DNA of 38,511 bases from Candidatus Peribacteria bacterium. Its GTDB lineage: Bacteria; Patescibacteriota; Gracilibacteria; Peribacterales; Peribacteraceae. The stretch is taken from NCBI GenBank assembly GCA_028286915.1, contig JAQBQQ010000020.1, positions 1 through 38,511 on the forward strand. Reading direction: 5' to 3'. How positions within the stretch are numbered: the first letter of the stretch is position 1; the number at the start of each line of letters is the position of its first letter. This document shows positions 7,527 to 20,699 of this stretch, piece after piece. Under the pieces are notes generated by a model. It was not told the DNA's origin, ran no database searches, and saw only the letters and a list, made by a program, of their open reading frames with translations. The position numbers were made by a program, and so were the translations under genes.

Positions 7527-7571
7527 CACACGGCCTCATCGTCCTTCGTCGGGCTCAGGACGATGCTGAGG
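7527..7571 (+). repeat. Partial copy of tRNA-Glu 5' end joined to a hairpin
   Basis: Positions 7527-7543 match 7606-7622, the tRNA-Glu 5' end with 5 nt of flank, at 16 of 17 bases. The copy continues into a hairpin in which CATCGTCCT (7537-7545) pairs with AGGACGATG (7557-7565). The TCCTTCG...CTCAGGACGA hairpin type is a widely dispersed bacterial repeat. Confidence 0.55.
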
Positions 7572-7610: not shown

Positions 7611-7685
7611 GGCCCCATCGTCTAACGGTTAGGACAGCAGGTTCTCATCCTGCAAATCGGGGTTCGATTCCCCGTGGGGCTGCCA
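7611..7685 (+). tRNA. tRNA-Glu (anticodon CTC)
   Basis: The cloverleaf is complete. The acceptor GGCCCCA pairs with TGGGGCT (one G-U), the anticodon stem is GCAGG/CCTGC with loop TTCTCAT and anticodon CTC, and the T-arm is CGGGG-TTCGATT-CCCCG. CCA is encoded at 7683-7685. The 3' end is repeated at 12142-12153 and the 5' end is partly copied at 7527-7543. Confidence 0.95.
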
Positions 7686-7842
7686 CATCATTATCACCAT
7701 TCTCAAGTTCAGTGATTGCCTCATGTACTGGCGATAATTTCGGAGTTTGTTTGCCTGCCAATGCGTCATACGAAATTCCTTCAGGGAATATAAGCGACTG
7801 CAGCCGGAATTGCTTTTCTGGCCGCGCCTTTGCTCCCAACAC
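7645..7842 (-). pseudogene. Remnant C-terminus of a site-specific recombinase (tentative)
   Basis: This 65-codon open stretch contains RPEKQFRLQSLIFPEGISYD followed by KQTPKLSPVHEAI. That resembles the extreme C-terminus of serine recombinases (resolvase/invertase family) common in CPR genomes, where an FPEGI.YD motif and a TP.LS tail occur. No catalytic or zinc-ribbon part remains, and an in-frame stop lies just upstream. The last codons run into the tRNA-Glu gene on the opposite strand (APRGIEPRF is the usual antisense tRNA reading). I take it as the decayed integration gene of the adjacent island. The family call rests on memory of the motif only. Confidence 0.4.
7674..7685 (+). repeat. 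attL-like site: 3' end of tRNA-Glu
   Basis: GTGGGGCTGCCA, the acceptor end and CCA of tRNA-Glu, is repeated exactly and in the same orientation at 12142-12153. Extending 14 nt leftward, including CGATT of the T-loop, the two sites match at 20 of 26 positions. Confidence 0.6.
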
Positions 7843-7966
7843 CGACGCGAGCGTCTTTCACACCTGCACTGTACATCAACTCTTTTTGCCTATGTTCAGA
7901 CGAACTCCTGGAAATAGGGAGACTGACTTACGGAAACGGAAACCCATGTGATACCTTTCATCACTT

Positions 7967-8494
7967 CTACATTTCGGGAAGATAGGTGCATTGCACCAAC
8001 CCCTTATCGAATGTTTTCACCTCTTGCAACGAAAGCAGGATCCTCATGTCGATGTTGTCCAAAAGCCGGATTCCTTCCCCGAGGATCACCGGCACGGTCG
8101 TCAGGATGAATTCGTCCACCAGGCCTTTCCGCAAGAATTCCTGCGCCACCTGCGCGCCACCGGTAATCCAAACATTCTTGTCGGTCTTTGCTTTCGCTTT
8201 CATCAAAACAGTTTCGATGTCGTCATTCGTGAAGACGGTGTCGGGATAGGCCGGCTCTTCGGCGGGTGGATTGTGCGTTAGTATGAACGTAGGGACGGGA
8301 TGAAAGTTCCCCCATCCTTGTTTCAGCCCCACATCGTAGGTTCTTTTCCCCTCGATGGCTGAGCCTATTGTTGCAAAAAATTCTTTATAACCGTAATCGA
8401 CATCATTGTAAGGAAACAACCATGAAATGTCATCGTCCTTCCCGGCCACGAAACCATCAAGGGACATTGCAAGGTAGAGGATGGATTTGTTCAT
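7967..8494 (-). CDS. Dihydrofolate reductase family protein (RibD C-terminal type)
   Basis: The 175-aa protein has the DHFR/RibD reductase fold: the N-terminal strand ILYLAMSLDGFVAGKDDDISWL, a nucleotide-binding strand with NVWITGGAQVAQEFLRKGLVDEFILTTVPVILGEGIRLL, and GKRTYDVG near the middle. This family typically binds NADPH, but the substrate is unknown; it is not a proven folate enzyme. It is the most downstream gene of the leftward ArsR/AHSA1 group, about 208 nt after the AHSA1 gene, a combination seen in many bacteria. It lies inside the proposed tRNA-Glu island. Confidence 0.85.
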   Translation of the reverse strand: MNKSILYLAMSLDGFVAGKDDDISWLFPYNDVDYGYKEFFATIGSAIEGKRTYDVGLKQGWGNFHPVPTFILTHNPPAEEPAYPDTVFTNDDIETVLMKAKAKTDKNVWITGGAQVAQEFLRKGLVDEFILTTVPVILGEGIRLLDNIDMRILLSLQEVKTFDKGLVQCTYLPEM

Positions 8495-8702
8495 AGAAAA
8501 GAATTTTAGTACGGATCAAGCCGTTGTGACAACTATGATGTTTTTCAGGACTTTGTACCAGTGGACCATTGCTTCGAAGATACTTGTTTGAGAAAGTCTT
8601 TGGCCTGCCAATTTTACTTCATCTCTTACACATATAGATAAGCTATTTCACCCTGTTCCACATCAGAATGCAAAACAGGATGAACGAATGTAAGAACAAC
8701 AA

Positions 8703-9128
8703 TTAGGCAAGAAATTTCTGCAGGTGCGCAAGGATGCCCTTCCAGCCTTCGTTGTGGCTTTTCATGGATTCTTCGGACTCGAAATCTTGATCCGTGAGTG
8801 TGAAGTCGGTGCCGCTTCCGTTTGGTTTTAGTTCGACGGTCACAAGGCTTGCGTCATGCGTCTCACCGCACGTCCAGACAATGACAATTTTTTCGTCGGG
8901 TACGATTTCTTTGTATTCGCCGTCAGTCACATGATTCGTTCCGTTGGCTTCCTTCATATCGAACTTGAAGGTTCCGCCAACGCGGAAGTCCACATGATGG
9001 ATGGTGGTTGTCATGTCATCCGACGCAACAAGCCACTGCAACATGGCTTCGGCATCGGACCAGGCATGGAACACATCCGCTGGTGATGCATCGAAATGCT
9101 GCTGAAATTGGAGAGAGAGTTTTTCCAT
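8703..9128 (-). CDS. SRPBCC/AHSA1 domain protein
   Basis: The protein has 141 aa of the START-like SRPBCC fold. The AHSA1 signature is plain: an FDASPADVFHAWSDAEAMLQWL opening, a GGTFKFDM strand, VTDGEYKEIVPDEKIVIVWT, and a final helix with HNEGWKGILAHLQKFL. AHSA1-domain proteins bind hydrophobic ligands in a deep cavity, and the role of the free bacterial ones is mostly unknown. The gene is 23 nt downstream of the ArsR repressor and in the same direction, so the pair is almost certainly co-transcribed and controlled by that repressor. Confidence 0.88.
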   Translation of the reverse strand: MEKLSLQFQQHFDASPADVFHAWSDAEAMLQWLVASDDMTTTIHHVDFRVGGTFKFDMKEANGTNHVTDGEYKEIVPDEKIVIVWTCGETHDASLVTVELKPNGSGTDFTLTDQDFESEESMKSHNEGWKGILAHLQKFLA

Positions 9129-9151
9129 AAAAAGAGAAAAAAGGGAGGAGT

Positions 9152-9487
9152 TTAAGAAGCAGATTTGTTCGCTTTCAGATATTTTTCCAGGCCAGCCAGA
9201 CGTTTTTGCCAGAATTTCGTGTGCGTTTCTATCCAGGCGGCCGCTTCATCAAGTGGTTCCACATTGATTGTAAAATAGTAATACCGTTGTACTTTTTCTC
9301 TCCGGATCAGTTTTGCTTGTTCTAAGATTTTAAGATGCTTGGTGACGGCCGGCAGCGATATATGCAAAGGTTTTGCCAAATCCCGAATTGGCTGCCGTTT
9401 AGCGGCAATACCCTGCAGTAGTTGTCTGCGAACAGGGCTTTCGAGCGCCCGGAAGACTAAGCCGATGGAATCCAGATCATTAACCAT
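9152..9487 (-). CDS. ArsR-family repressor (SdpR-like), autoregulated
   Basis: The 111-aa winged-helix protein reads LVFRALESPVRRQLLQGIAAKRQPIRDLAKPLHISLPAVTKHLKILEQAKLIRREKVQRYYYF. The recognition helix is SLPAVTKHLKIL. It has no cysteine metal site, as expected for the SdpR-type partners of AHSA1 genes. I chose the ATG at 9487 because an upstream frame to 9523 adds an unlikely N-terminus and because the start codon sits inside a perfect 16-bp palindrome. It is the first gene of the leftward repressor, AHSA1 and DHFR-like group. Confidence 0.88.
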   Translation of the reverse strand: MVNDLDSIGLVFRALESPVRRQLLQGIAAKRQPIRDLAKPLHISLPAVTKHLKILEQAKLIRREKVQRYYYFTINVEPLDEAAAWIETHTKFWQKRLAGLEKYLKANKSAS

Positions 9488-9495
9488 ATGGTTAA
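9480..9495. promoter_or_regulatory. Palindromic operator over the arsR start codon
   Basis: TTAACCATATGGTTAA is a perfect 16-bp palindrome whose centre contains the ArsR start codon. A dimeric winged-helix repressor bound here would block transcription entry or ribosome access. Autorepression is inferred. Confidence 0.65.
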
Positions 9496-9617
9496 GTATT
9501 TCATGCGAGCAGACGACTGTCAAGCATACGAATTGCGACAGTTTTCAGAACCTGGAACCAGTGTGTCGTTTCTACTGTTAAAAAGTTCGTAACTCGCGTC
9601 CTTTGGTCTGTTGCTAT

Positions 9618-9881
9618 CTACTCTATAAACAACTCATCAATATAGCACCATTTCCAGTCCTCTCCCGGCTGGAACGACTGGATGATGGGATGTTCTGTTT
9701 CGTAAAAATGCTTTGTTGCATGTTTGTTTTTTGAATTGTCGCAACAGCCGACGTGTCCGCAGGTAAGGCACAGCCTTAGGTGGACCCATGTATCTCCCAT
9801 GGCCAGGCATTCCTCGCAGCCGGCGGGGGTTTTGGGCTGTACGTTTCGTATCTGATCAAGATGTGTGCACTGGTTGGCCAT
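9618..9881 (-). CDS. UBP-type zinc finger protein, 87 aa
   Basis: This small protein is a single zf-UBP domain: CTHLDQI, then GCEECLAMGDTWVHLRLCLTCGHVGCCDNSKNKHATKHFYETEHPIIQSF, then WKWCYIDE. The Cys and His spacing fits a cross-braced zinc-binding fold. In eukaryotes this fold binds the free C-terminus of ubiquitin; bacterial copies have no known partner. The ATG at 9881 lies inside the end of the DUF5996 gene (26-nt overlap, different frame), so the two are translationally linked. Confidence 0.85.
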   Translation of the reverse strand: MANQCTHLDQIRNVQPKTPAGCEECLAMGDTWVHLRLCLTCGHVGCCDNSKNKHATKHFYETEHPIIQSFQPGEDWKWCYIDELFIE

Positions 9882-10839
9882 GGGGTAAAGGGGGAATGCG
9901 CGTCCGGAAAGATGAAATGTCCCACCCTGCCAGCTCCGCGCTCTTGGTGTATGTGGATTCAAGGAAATCCAGAATGGTTTGGTCCGGGTGCTCCGTGTTG
10001 CAGACAGCGTCGTAGGGCAAAATGCATTCGCCCAATTGCTCATGAAAAGAGGCGCCCTGCAGGAGCGTTGTAGTCCGTATGCCGGGTGGTTCGGGGTAGA
10101 GATACGAGAAGAATGCAGTATGCGGGAAACGGTTGTCACCCGGCCAGAAGCCGAACGCGAAGTTCTCCTCGTTTTCGGCAAACTCCATAATTCTTCCCAT
10201 GACACCTTCATAGCGGGGAGGGGTGGCCATCCTGCCCGAGAATCTTGTTCCGCTGAGGTCGAAGGATCCCCAGAAAAAATGAATAGGGCTGCTCTTACCC
10301 CGAAACGATGTCCGAAAACTCTCAAACACCGTCTGCGTCTGCCGGAGAATGCGCCACCACCTCGTCACGTAGTCTTTGTTGTAGGATGCATGGCTCGTGT
10401 CCTGCTCAAAAGGAATGGGATCGGATACTTCCACGGGAACCGGCCAAATGGTGACATGAATGCCGAGTTCCGTAAGGGCGTTCATGAATTCACGGTAGAA
10501 CGCTGCAACGGTTTTTGGCACGAGCGGCATGACTAGTGCCTTGCCGGTGCTGGTACGAATGGAAAGAGTGTGGTCCAGAAAATCAAAATCCACCTCAAAA
10601 GTCTTACCTTCATACGGAATGGGCCCTGTCGTCAGACCCGTTGCCGTAACGAAGAATGTTACTTCCCACCACTGGTTCAGAAACGGCGCGAGTGCAAGCT
10701 TCACCTTTCCCACGACTTGTGTCCACATGTGAAGCGTTGTCCGTGTGTCTTTCCATTTGTCATACGGGAGTTCCGGCCATGCAGTAGCAGGTGATTGTTC
10801 CGGGCGAGGCTGATGCTGACGGTTTGTCATCATAAACAT
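9856..10839 (-). CDS. DUF5996 family protein
   Basis: The 327-aa cytosolic protein begins, after a short Q/P-rich tail, with WPELPYDKWKDTRTTLHMWTQVVGKVKLAL, the usual opening of DUF5996. It continues with QWWEVTFFVTATGLTTGPIPY, HFFWGSFDLSGTRFSGR and FGFWPGD, all typical of the family. It is rich in Trp and aromatic residues. No biochemical function is established. Several ATG codons (10839, 10833, 10830) could serve as start. It overlaps the zinc-finger gene downstream and lies 46 nt from the LtrA gene stop upstream, suggesting a leftward three-gene transcript. Confidence 0.85.
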   Translation of the reverse strand: MFMMTNRQHQPRPEQSPATAWPELPYDKWKDTRTTLHMWTQVVGKVKLALAPFLNQWWEVTFFVTATGLTTGPIPYEGKTFEVDFDFLDHTLSIRTSTGKALVMPLVPKTVAAFYREFMNALTELGIHVTIWPVPVEVSDPIPFEQDTSHASYNKDYVTRWWRILRQTQTVFESFRTSFRGKSSPIHFFWGSFDLSGTRFSGRMATPPRYEGVMGRIMEFAENEENFAFGFWPGDNRFPHTAFFSYLYPEPPGIRTTTLLQGASFHEQLGECILPYDAVCNTEHPDQTILDFLESTYTKSAELAGWDISSFRTRIPPLPHGQPVHTS

Positions 10840-10885
10840 ACATTCTACGAGCGTGTGAAAGCTCTGTACATAATTATGTTCAGTA

Positions 10886-12049
10886 TTATTGGGCCGGATT
10901 CGCCTTAACTTTCACGTCCATGCTTTGGGTGCGTCCATGTATCCATCGTTCCTGGGCGCTAACGTGAAAGAAGAGGATGGTAATGAGGCTCAGCACGCAC
11001 GCGAATCCCGGGGCCTGGACCATGAGGAAACCGAGCAGCAGCGTAAGACCTGCTACTCCGAGCGAGAGCTGAGCGCGGCGCTTTTCGCTATCGCGAAGCG
11101 TGTGGTCCAGAGCGGCCAGTATGAAAAGCCACAATGCCACGCTGCCGAAAAGCATTCCCCGCACAATGAGAGGGATATCATCCCCGCCCCGCGGCAGCAG
11201 ATATTCCACGCTGATGATGTTTCCGAGCATTCCCATCCACAGGAGCAGATGCAGGTAAGCGAACGGCTGACCGCCCCGGATACACCGGTTGCCTTCCCAC
11301 TCCTGCAGATACAGAAAGTAGAGCCACCACATGAGCGCGACCAGACAGAACGATGCGACGGCGGTAAGAATGTCGAGAGGCGACCAGACTATGTTATCCA
11401 GCACATTGGTGGACGTAAGGAAGTGTTCACCGAGCAGTACGATGGTAAAGAGGCCGAATCGCTCGGGCAGGTGTCTGGTATCCACCGGATTTTGGGAGAG
11501 CAGTCTAATGCCCAGCCATGGCGTGATGAGATCCGCAGCAAGGCTGATGCCCCACAAAGCGAAGCGCAGTGGCGGGCTTACGAAAAAAGACGCTGTCCAA
11601 ATAAGGACGCCCAAAGTAAACCCGGAAAGATACAATGTCGTTATGCCGTGTACTTCGGGTATCCGCAGACGAGCACGAGTGTAGAGCGCAAGCAGGATCA
11701 GCCGCACGCTCAGGTAGGAGAGCCCGAACCCGACTGATAATTCTTCCAATGCACCGTGCACCGTGAGCGCCAGTCCCAGCGCAAAGAGCATTTGCAGCAG
11801 GGTAAGAATGCGGTGCAGGTAATCATCGGTATCAAAGCGGGTGGAGTAGAACGTATGTCCCATCCACGCCCACACGACGGGAAGAAACAGAAAGACGCTC
11901 TGGAATAACCCCATCATCGTCAGATTTCCCGTTGCCCGGCGGCTAATCTCCGTGAGCGCCACGACAAATGCGAGGTCATAAAAGAGTTCCAGCCATGTGG
12001 CGTGGCGAGTGCCTTGTTCATTGCGGGAGAAAAGGGTTTTCACTTCCAT
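10886..12049 (-). CDS. ltrA: Low temperature requirement protein A (LtrA) family
   Basis: This is an integral membrane protein with about ten hydrophobic helices. The family marks are WLELFYDLAFVVALTEISRR near the N-terminus, the central VWAWMGHTFYSTRFDTDD, and HLPERFGLFTIVLLGEHFL, containing the conserved ERFGLF and LGE. LtrA was named from a cold-growth phenotype in Listeria; its transport or enzymatic role is unknown. I chose the ATG at 12049, giving MEVKTLF and 387 aa, over a GTG at 12076. It is the outermost cargo gene, about 90 nt from the proposed attR. Confidence 0.85.
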   Translation of the reverse strand: MEVKTLFSRNEQGTRHATWLELFYDLAFVVALTEISRRATGNLTMMGLFQSVFLFLPVVWAWMGHTFYSTRFDTDDYLHRILTLLQMLFALGLALTVHGALEELSVGFGLSYLSVRLILLALYTRARLRIPEVHGITTLYLSGFTLGVLIWTASFFVSPPLRFALWGISLAADLITPWLGIRLLSQNPVDTRHLPERFGLFTIVLLGEHFLTSTNVLDNIVWSPLDILTAVASFCLVALMWWLYFLYLQEWEGNRCIRGGQPFAYLHLLLWMGMLGNIISVEYLLPRGGDDIPLIVRGMLFGSVALWLFILAALDHTLRDSEKRRAQLSLGVAGLTLLLGFLMVQAPGFACVLSLITILFFHVSAQERWIHGRTQSMDVKVKANPAQ

Positions 12050-12141
12050 GAGTAAGGCGGAATAGGGGATTTCCACTCATGATACCATCCTCAAGGAGCG
12101 AAGATATCAGATTCTTTCCTAAAAAGCGGAGTGCGATTTGG

Positions 12142-12153
12142 TGTGGGGCTGCC
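12142..12153 (+). repeat. attR-like copy of the tRNA-Glu 3' end
   Basis: GTGGGGCTGCCA is identical to 7674-7685. The 14 nt before it keep part of the tRNA T-loop (CGATT). No tRNA body is present, so this is a displaced 3' end. The 350 nt between the LtrA start and the lipoprotein start hold this site and no gene. Confidence 0.6.
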
Positions 12154-12399
12154 AGACAAAAGATAGTTAGCCAGCGATGCATTAAAATATATTATACCAT
12201 TTATTACCGGGCGTTCTACGAAGCTGTGGAACGTATTTTATATTTTTCAGTAAATGAAAAGACCGTGCATTGACTTTTATAATAAATAAATCCGTATCGG
12301 TCAACTATGAATCATCCATACACTGTTGTATCCCGCAACGACTCTGTTGTTCACAACTTTACGGAAACGTTCTACATTTCTATCCTTTCCTATCTCATC

Positions 12400-12903
12400 A
12401 TGAAAAAATACCTCGTTTTAACCTTTGTACTTCTTATGAGCGGCTGCAATGGCACCTCTCAGCAGACTGTTGGACATAGTTCTTCCCAGGCCATGAGCTC
12501 TTCGTCATCTCTTTCTTCTCCGTCCGTAAAAGAGCCAACTGTGTCCTTTTTTATACCGGAAGGTTATACCTATGTCCGGTTTACTTCTCATGGAAGGCTT
12601 GAGGGAAGTGGAATTGCTTACAGCGAAGTTGTTGCTTCGGTAGGTAATGAAGGTGAAACGGCGCAGATCTCAGTATTAAGAACTTCCGATCCGAAAATTT
12701 TAGCATTCTTGGGCCGTTATGCTCCGGGACAGAAAGTTACGATCGGGGGAATCAAGATGCAGAAATTTGTTCAGCAGAATATGCAACTGACACAAGATTA
12801 CGTTTATAAAGTCGAAGATGAGTATATTGTTATTTCTTTTGATGGTCCTCCTTCAGATGATATTCAGCGTAAAGTTATTGAGTCAGTACAAATTTTAAAT
12901 TAG
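12400..12903 (+). CDS. Hypothetical lipoprotein, 167 aa
   Basis: The N-terminus MKKYLVLTFVLLMSGC is a standard lipoprotein signal, with the lipidated Cys at residue 16. A serine-rich linker of about 25 residues follows, then a compact domain beginning VSFFIPEGYTYVRF that alternates strands and helices. The family is not recognised; the fold resembles small PsbP-like or DUF-type lipoprotein domains. The frame is open from 12307, but that start would bury the signal peptide. A weak promoter (TTTACG at 12358, TATCCT at 12381, 17-nt spacing) would give a leader of a few nt. The gene ends just before a strong terminator hairpin. Confidence 0.7.
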   Translation: MKKYLVLTFVLLMSGCNGTSQQTVGHSSSQAMSSSSSLSSPSVKEPTVSFFIPEGYTYVRFTSHGRLEGSGIAYSEVVASVGNEGETAQISVLRTSDPKILAFLGRYAPGQKVTIGGIKMQKFVQQNMQLTQDYVYKVEDEYIVISFDGPPSDDIQRKVIESVQILN

Positions 12904-19514: not shown

Positions 19515-20699
19515 TTATTCTACCCATAAAAGCAAACTTTTCAGGTAATCCACTTCCGGGTGAAACAGATTAATCGGGTGATCGAAAGCGTGGCGGTGGC
19601 GCTGCAGGATCCGTACGTTACGGTTGGCCTGGCGTGCGGCATGGAACACGATTGTCTGGAACAGTTCCGCGTCTACCTGGTACGAGCACGAACAGGTGAG
19701 CAGCAGGCCGCCCGGAGGCAGTGCCTGCAGTGCCATGCGATTTAAGTCCGTATACGCGCCTTTGGCCTGATCAATGTCGCTGGAGCGCTTGGCAAAAGCC
19801 GGCGGGTCCAGAATAATAAAATCGTAGGCGTTCGGCATGGGCTTCTGGCGCAGGAAATCAAAGACATCCTGGGCGTATGTATTGAATTGCTGTTCTGGAA
19901 TAGCGTTGATACTCATGTGTTCCTTCGCGCGCTCCAGTGCGTCCGCATCGTAGTCCACGGCATCGGCATGTACCGCGCCGCCGGCCAATGCCGACAGCGA
20001 AAAGCCGCCGACGTAACTGCAGCAGTCAAGAACCGTGCGGCCGGGGGAGAGTTGCCGGACCAGTGACCGCATTTCGCGTTGATCCAGAAACAATCCTGTT
20101 TTCTGGCTGCCTTCCAGTTTTATTAAGTACTTGAGCCCGCGTTCCTTAATGGGAATAACGGCATCGCCTTCGCCGCGCAGCCAGCCTTCGCGTGGTTCCA
20201 GGCTTTCTTTCTTGCGGCTGGCGCCAATGGATTTTTCGTAGATGGCTTTGGGCTGTACCAGTTCCATGAGCGTATCGCCGATCCAGTCTTTGAGCCGTTC
20301 CATGCCGAGCGTGGTGATTTGTACCACCAGGATATCGGCGTACTGGTCCACAATGAGGCCGGGAATATTGTCGCCCTCGGCATTTATGAGGCGGAAACCG
20401 GTTGTATCTTCTCCGCTAAAGAACGATTGTCGCATTTCCACCGCGCGTTTTATGGCGCGACGCATACTTTGCAGCGGGTCGCCTTCTTCAAAGCTGATGA
20501 CACGGCCGCAGATAAAGGCCCGGACATTGAGCGTCGCATAGCAGAGGAACTGTCCTTCGTGGCTGCGTACTTCCACAATGGAGCCGTTTTTTACGGCATT
20601 CAGCGGCGTGGCGATGGCATGCTGATAAATGGCATGGTGCCGGTTTTTAAGGTGCACGTCGCGGCCGGGCTTAAGAGTAATGGAAGGGTAGTCGGACAT
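19515..20699 (-). CDS. rlmI: 23S rRNA (cytosine-C5)-methyltransferase, RlmI type
   Basis: The 394-aa protein has the three-part RlmI plan. An N-terminal PUA domain (ITLKPGRDVHLKNRHHAIYQHAI...) covers residues 1-75. A central EEHEH-type region contains GFRLINAEGDNIPGLIVDQYADILVVQ and EGSQKTGLFLDQRE. The Rossmann methyltransferase has VLDCCSYVGGFSL for SAM, FIILDPPAFAK as the catalytic DPPAF motif, and LLTCSCSY. It should form m5C in 23S rRNA (C1962 in E. coli). It is the third 23S methyltransferase in this window. No Shine-Dalgarno is seen. Confidence 0.9.
   Translation of the reverse strand: MSDYPSITLKPGRDVHLKNRHHAIYQHAIATPLNAVKNGSIVEVRSHEGQFLCYATLNVRAFICGRVISFEEGDPLQSMRRAIKRAVEMRQSFFSGEDTTGFRLINAEGDNIPGLIVDQYADILVVQITTLGMERLKDWIGDTLMELVQPKAIYEKSIGASRKKESLEPREGWLRGEGDAVIPIKERGLKYLIKLEGSQKTGLFLDQREMRSLVRQLSPGRTVLDCCSYVGGFSLSALAGGAVHADAVDYDADALERAKEHMSINAIPEQQFNTYAQDVFDFLRQKPMPNAYDFIILDPPAFAKRSSDIDQAKGAYTDLNRMALQALPPGGLLLTCSCSYQVDAELFQTIVFHAARQANRNVRILQRHRHAFDHPINLFHPEVDYLKSLLLWVE

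Follow-up and report, generated by a model that had tools for sequence, protein, structure and literature searches.

A composite island at a tRNA-Glu gene of a Candidatus Peribacteria bacterium and its relation to large serine integrases

Among described systems, the ssrA islands of Dehalococcoides are close to the locus reported here; there, the large serine integrase gene dsiB always overlaps the left attachment site (attL), with no stop before the edge of the island (PMC3146451). Its authors propose that full DsiB function may need the circular form or a neighbouring island carrying the 3′ gene fragment, call the DsiB ends divergent, and describe a small partner, DsiA (PMC3146451). Our locus is in the first 38,511 nucleotides (nt) of contig JAQBQQ010000020.1 of a Candidatus Peribacteria bacterium (GCA_028286915.1; the whole stretch analysed, hereafter the window), where an original prediction had proposed a small island borne by a tRNA-Glu gene. 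The two share a large serine integrase at attL with its 3′ end overlapping an RNA gene and no stop ahead of it, and the occurrence of adjacent islands at one RNA gene (PMC3146451). They differ in the target, which is the transfer-messenger RNA (tmRNA) gene ssrA in Dehalococcoides and tRNA-Glu in the window (tmRNA is used in some of our distant relatives), and in that the DsiB ends are described there as divergent, whereas here the missing tail of the integrase is recovered, conserved, at the far end (PMC3146451). Islander-type tRNA islands, as presented in a 2014 paper, likewise have an intact tRNA gene, a distal fragment and the island between them; that paper gives tyrosine integrases as the only ones then known to target tRNA and tmRNA genes (PMC4383910). 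It also cites phage Mx8 IntP and the SSV integrases as extending across the attachment site of the element (attP) (PMC4383910); integration then alters the 3′ portion of such a gene or breaks it in two, as proposed here.

Our analysis shows the island to be made up of about three units, with a distal end of a different kind; it probably represents the leftovers of elements with a large serine integrase that inserted repeatedly at the tRNA-Glu 3′ end and whose integrase gene is split on integration. The Mx8 IntP and SSV integrases are tyrosine recombinases, unlike the serine integrase here. In integrons, short gene-bearing units that each finish in a recombination site gather at one docking site through a tyrosine integrase (IntI); a docking site and small site-ended units are common to both, but here the associated integrase is of the serine type, the site is protein-coding and mobility of the units is putative. 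Overlap of a serine integrase gene with its RNA-gene target is already known from DsiB, and the recovered tails and mini-units extend it; a literature search, which left subscription journals mostly outside and judged most items from the listing alone, found no publication on such tails in this phylum.

Core, integrase remnant and inner sites of the island

The following features of the window carry this reading; R1 is a sequence model of the right-end site, built from 15 sites.

7611–7685, plus strand: tRNA-Glu (CTC), intact, the attachment target (ARAGORN; Rfam RF00005, 60.3 bits)
7674–7685, plus strand: attachment core GTGGGGCTGCCA at the tRNA junction
7645–7842, minus strand: 3′-end remnant of a large serine integrase gene (roughly 55 codons leading up to the core), adjoining tRNA-Glu
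8528–8610, plus strand: right-end site 1, core GGCCTGCCA with the antisense in-frame tail AGQRLSQTSIFEAMVHWYKVLKNIIVVTTA and stop (R1 3.4e-14; one of R1's 15 training sites)
9531–9613, plus strand: right-end site 2, decayed core with the in-frame tail TDQRTRVTNFLTVETTHWFQVLKTVAIRMLDSRLLA and stop (R1 4.0e-06; outside the training set)
12117–12154, plus strand: distal tRNA-like copy of the non-tail type, the exact 12-mer at 12143–12154 with a decayed T-arm likeness

The frame of the remnant continues antisense into the tRNA gene (AAPRGIEPRFAG) to a stop made by tRNA bases 35–37. It matches open reading frames (ORFs) of 587 codons at locus L072 (67% over 57 amino acids) and 556 codons at L089 (60% over 55 amino acids), which abut tRNA-Glu in two relatives of the same family (the named ones are Candidatus Peregrinibacteria), and an integrase C-terminal profile matches it at 1.3e-13, so the recombinase-like remnant proposed next to the tRNA is real. 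The organism's own genome has no integrase of the remnant's type at E≤1e-20, which agrees with the proposal that the island is immobilised.

The earlier reading of the sequence overlooked two end-type sites inside the island. A distal attachment site (attR) of the tail type is present at 8528–8610 and again at site 2, where R1 matches 9531–9610, but not at the copy ending at 12154. With these inner sites at 8610 and about 9613 and the tRNA-like copy at 12154, the island is read as three units, 7686–8610, 8611–9613 and 9614–12154.

The exact, same-direction repeat of the tRNA-Glu 3′ end had been noticed before and is real, although its distal copy was placed one base low (12142–12153 instead of 12143–12154). 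GTGGGGCTGCCA is expected 0.01 times in the window (dinucleotide shuffles) and about 0.17 times in the 1.43-Mb genome at uniform composition; the whole genome holds three copies, at the distal position and at both tRNA-Glu genes, the other of which (TTC) is on contig C13, and the 12-mer is therefore not a common one. The 20 of 26 matches claimed for its extension into the T-arm are correct by eye. Positions 7648–7685 and 12117–12154 are 76% identical over 38 nt, and 17 of the 26 positions left of the distal core match the tRNA with the T-arm in register, a score of at least 17 being reached at one other place among 38,386 plus-strand positions and nowhere on the other strand. A further 17 nt at 7527–7543, in a palindromic stretch 79 nt upstream, are 94% like the tRNA-Glu 5′ end.

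A chance repeat beside vertically inherited genes is scarcely credible, and no support for it was found. Against it stand the rarity of the 12-mer in window and genome and the distribution of the six genes between the repeats: none lies downstream of tRNA-Glu in 40 loci that are part of the matches from family relatives, so conserved synteny is refuted for the family sample, and the DUF5996 gene occurs in the own genome only (1 of 379 genomes in the phylum sample). One 4.5-kb element that arrived in a single insertion and afterwards lost its integrase, with the inner sites unrelated to it, would fit the same-direction 12-mer at both ends, otherwise confined to tRNA-Glu genes, and the T-arm likeness in register. 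However, the inner sites, at 3.4e-14 and 4.0e-6 per genome, carry a tail in the integrase frame that the outer copy lacks, and they separate the cargo into groups; because of them a single element is rejected as the sole account and is an unlikely explanation. What had been taken as a classic integration footprint thus holds as to insertion at the tRNA-Glu 3′ end, but not as one element with matching ends, given the two inner right-end sites and the other type of the copy at 12154. An insertion origin is supported; a single simple island is not.

Integrases and tails in related genomes

Intact relatives of the integrase are 543–587 codons long, have tRNA-Glu as their neighbour as well, and end antisense inside the tRNA gene without a stop of their own. 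The catalytic domain is present in these (PF00239, Resolvase, in both of the two scanned, with a zinc ribbon in one), and the window keeps the C-terminal remnant only. In all six tRNA-Glu-adjoining integrases of the remnant's type, the frame runs antisense into the tRNA, reads AAPRGIEPR... or nearly so, and stops there. More broadly, among 22 integrase loci (17 in the family and 5 elsewhere in the phylum), 19 end antisense within or at a gene for tRNA or tmRNA, the targets being 9 Glu, 2 Ala, 1 Lys, 1 Arg, 1 Ile and 5 tmRNA. In the other three, the integrase stops at the end of its contig, which is also the 3′ end of the tRNA-Glu gene (G051), lies away from any tRNA and has two internal stops (G035), or has no tRNA found with it (G430). 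We note that a second group of large serine integrases (L074, L084 and L090, in genomes G003, G028 and G008) also ends antisense inside tRNA-Glu, in a different frame (WQPHGESNPD...).

The far end of the elements has a conserved tail, TNSxIExMxxWYxVLK, in the integrase frame; in the joined frame left of the distal core it takes the form xRITNSxIEAMxDWYKVLK. Joining the frame gives this tail at all eight sites of five integrase-bearing elements (one each in G038, G030 and G051, two in G023 and three in G104, where the tail at 10740 is a divergent form), all eight having been brought up by the tail search itself. On the chromosome the tail is joined to an integrase body at none of 34 sites examined. 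Change rates at the three codon positions of the integrase frame are 0.406, 0.280 and 0.542, the third being highest (1,170 codon comparisons, 13 sites). The integrase gene appears to span attP.

Sites matched by R1 cluster at tRNA-Glu. At E≤0.01 there are 44 in 32 of 74 family genomes, and at E≤1e-3 they occur in 30 of the 74 versus 4 of 279 class genomes outside the family, all four weak. Thirty of the 44 are on contigs with a known tRNA-Glu (counting for G051 a 22-nt piece at the contig edge); every one of these is downstream on the strand of the tRNA, 27 of them within 20 kb. Besides the two in the window, the own genome has three R1 sites, of which one, used in training R1, is 767 nt beyond the other tRNA-Glu, one is on contig C39, without a tRNA, and one is on C11. 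The C39 contig has a mini-unit away from any tRNA (L181:4222–5495), in which an integrase C-terminal remnant and a possible gene are accompanied by a complete tail of 42 residues. Tail-type sites are like the tRNA mainly in the core; a displaced host tRNA 3′ end as the source of all right ends was rejected, since it would explain only 12154 and possibly the copy at 20521 in G104.

Eight of 12 elements each have, in frame at a distal copy of the core, one tail of a second type, with W at residue 8 (VDxIRxSWNQL; e.g. VDMIRQSWNQL); the elements include L197–L208 at tRNA-Lys, -Arg, -Ala, -Glu and tmRNA, and the set comprises the loci with enough flank (G105, with 3.3 kb, and G430, with no tRNA, were omitted). 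The pattern matches none of 187 open candidates in the two other frames. These observations bear on the explanation that integrase and tRNA overlap by accident and that the tail is functionless, the body being complete and translation merely running on. From one integrase group to another, the ends encoded by the tRNA vary in both sequence and frame, as an accident would allow, and are themselves unlikely to be functional. The tails behave otherwise, the first being conserved as protein across many genera, in frame and at the far end, and the second recurring in frame at various RNA genes; we regard an accidental overlap as improbable.

Units and cargo at the tRNA-Glu hotspot

The genes between tRNA-Glu and the distal copy were described as accessory and all on one strand, and this is confirmed by six minus-strand ORFs:

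7967–8494, minus strand, unit 1: RibD_C / dihydrofolate-reductase-like gene (PF01872, 3.6e-19)
8703–9128, minus strand, unit 2: AHSA1-type SRPBCC protein (PF08327, 1.8e-29)
9152–9523, minus strand, unit 2: ArsR/SdpR-like regulator, with a possible ATG at 9490 (PF12840, 4.7e-08; NF033789, 1.2e-15, below its cut-off)
9618–9881, minus strand, unit 3: UBP zinc-finger protein, zf-UBP (PF02148, 4.9e-14)
9856–10839, minus strand, unit 3: DUF5996 protein (PF19459, 2.6e-117)
10886–12076, minus strand, unit 3: LtrA-family membrane protein (PF06772, 1.3e-67)

Even the closest matches on plasmids are remote (DUF5996 48.7% in Calothrix, LtrA 35.8% in Nostoc, RibD about 37% and AHSA1 about 36%), and we therefore name no donor. 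G+C content gives the units no foreign mark (0.477, 0.461 and 0.536, versus 0.482 and 0.496 in the flanks). The gene to the right of the island (12307–12903) has relatives in 2 of 73 other family genomes, neither near a known tRNA-Glu.

At the 40 tRNA-Glu loci the downstream sequence differs almost everywhere, and RlmD and its neighbour often precede the tRNA, an arrangement also found in the window. G104 and G027, which are congeners, have the tRNA-Glu in common, and synteny resumes about 21.6 and 5.5 kb further on; this comparison, which does not bear on the window itself, and the varied downstream sequence mark tRNA-Glu as a hotspot. Fourteen tRNA-Glu-adjacent units of 489–2129 bp lack an intact integrase, as by the same test do two larger ones (6.9 and 15.2 kb), and an integrase is present in six units of 5.0–10.0 kb (the unit table omits the G027 site, E 0.007, and sites with no tRNA on the contig, except those of G035). 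The cargo of the small units is diverse (HAD hydrolase, S9 peptidase, RNase III-like, DUF6166, DUF4357 and RibD), with no recombinase among 20 unit proteins scanned; a primase-like gene is in one integrase-bearing element. Three integrase-less units, i.e. window unit 1, G103 and the C39 unit (added for the test of integrase C-termini), have an integrase C-terminal stretch at one end, then cargo, and a tail site at the other end.

Such small units raise the possibility of a cassette system, in which they would be mobile gene cassettes that a serine integrase, resident or incoming, inserts in trans; they would dock at tRNA-Glu and recombine at the tail-plus-core site, in a manner like that of integrons though unrelated to them. 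The 14 small units, mostly of one to three genes of unrelated kinds, speak for this, as do the three units with a C-terminal stretch, cargo and tail site, the C39 unit among them being away from tRNA. However, no unit was seen at two places or in two genomes, protein matches across integrase-less units are confined to small ORFs and distant HAD-size proteins, gene orientation is mixed, and decay of whole elements yields the same picture. We consider cassettes a doubtful explanation, and the same caution applies to the proposal for the Ca. Peregrinibacteria family that tRNA-Glu is a dock at which single-gene attP circles insert serially, integration removing the C-terminal tail and locking the array, which we hold to be rather unlikely. 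Decay of whole elements by deletion is a simpler reading of the units than cassette insertion in trans.

Several short similarities recur beside the sites. Nearly identical stretches of 127 nt follow two G104 sites (L133:13167–13293 and the part of L134 after 20521, L133 and L134 together), and the first 25 nt of this repeat are also found after tRNA-Glu in L104; nearly identical stretches of 88 nt follow two G023 sites (L128:7881–7968 and 11054–11141). As left ends of cassettes these offer resemblance only and are too few for a claim. Small ORFs recur just after tRNA-Glu or a site (L176:411–677, L178:2243–2503, L103:11097–11375 and L128:7994–8269), which are candidate GIY-YIG proteins by motif.

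Proposed origin and implications

The remnant, the sites, their frames, their clustering and the lack of an integrase in the own genome are observed directly; origin from repeated insertions by serine-integrase elements would involve the following course. While the element is a free circle, its integrase gene would extend across attP and finish with the conserved tail of about 24–49 codons. Recombination at the short core GGGGCTGCCA would restore the tRNA gene, because the element supplies the same last bases, and would split the integrase gene. The integrase body would remain beside the tRNA, reading antisense into it to a stop supplied by the complement of the anticodon region, and the tail would remain at the far end of the element; since the gene is split at the core, every insertion would leave a tail-plus-core site distally. 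Unit 1 would then comprise the integrase remnant and the reductase, unit 2 the AHSA1 and ArsR genes, and unit 3 the UBP, DUF5996 and LtrA genes, deletion having removed the integrase bodies and so stranded the pieces. As the copy at 12154 has no tail, the right end of unit 3 may derive from another integrase or an older event. We infer the order of insertions and deletions, and suggest that the circle would make the tailed protein and that loss of the tail may alter or stop its activity, and so favour the integrated state.

Several observations weigh against this reading. No circular copy was found, scans of viral_contigs giving one distant integrase relative and no junction-spanning match, and for the window there is no empty site and no congener genome was returned. 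The core of site 2 is decayed, the copy at 12154 has neither an R1 match nor such a tail in frame, and the C11 site is weak, lies past a tRNA-Val and lacks the conserved tail. For 17 of the 44 R1 sites no known tRNA-Glu lies within 20 kb (14 are on contigs that have none, and 3 are about 30 kb away). An integrase C-terminus is detectable in 3 of 25 integrase-less units, fewer than simple in-gene deletion would lead one to expect. As to the second tail, its pattern was set after 4 of its 8 matches were known, and it also matched 28 of 1,773 candidates at six unrelated random 5-mers.

With the tail-plus-core site, the distal end of serine-integrase insertions can be marked by sequence in Patescibacteria, a poorly known group whose islands are difficult to delimit, and the 2011 remark on DsiB becomes testable in the form of a gene that would be complete only in the circular state. 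If direction is controlled by the tail, such integrases would be locked by their own integration, which could matter for stable gene insertion. The locus also points to a way in which very small genomes may gather foreign genes.

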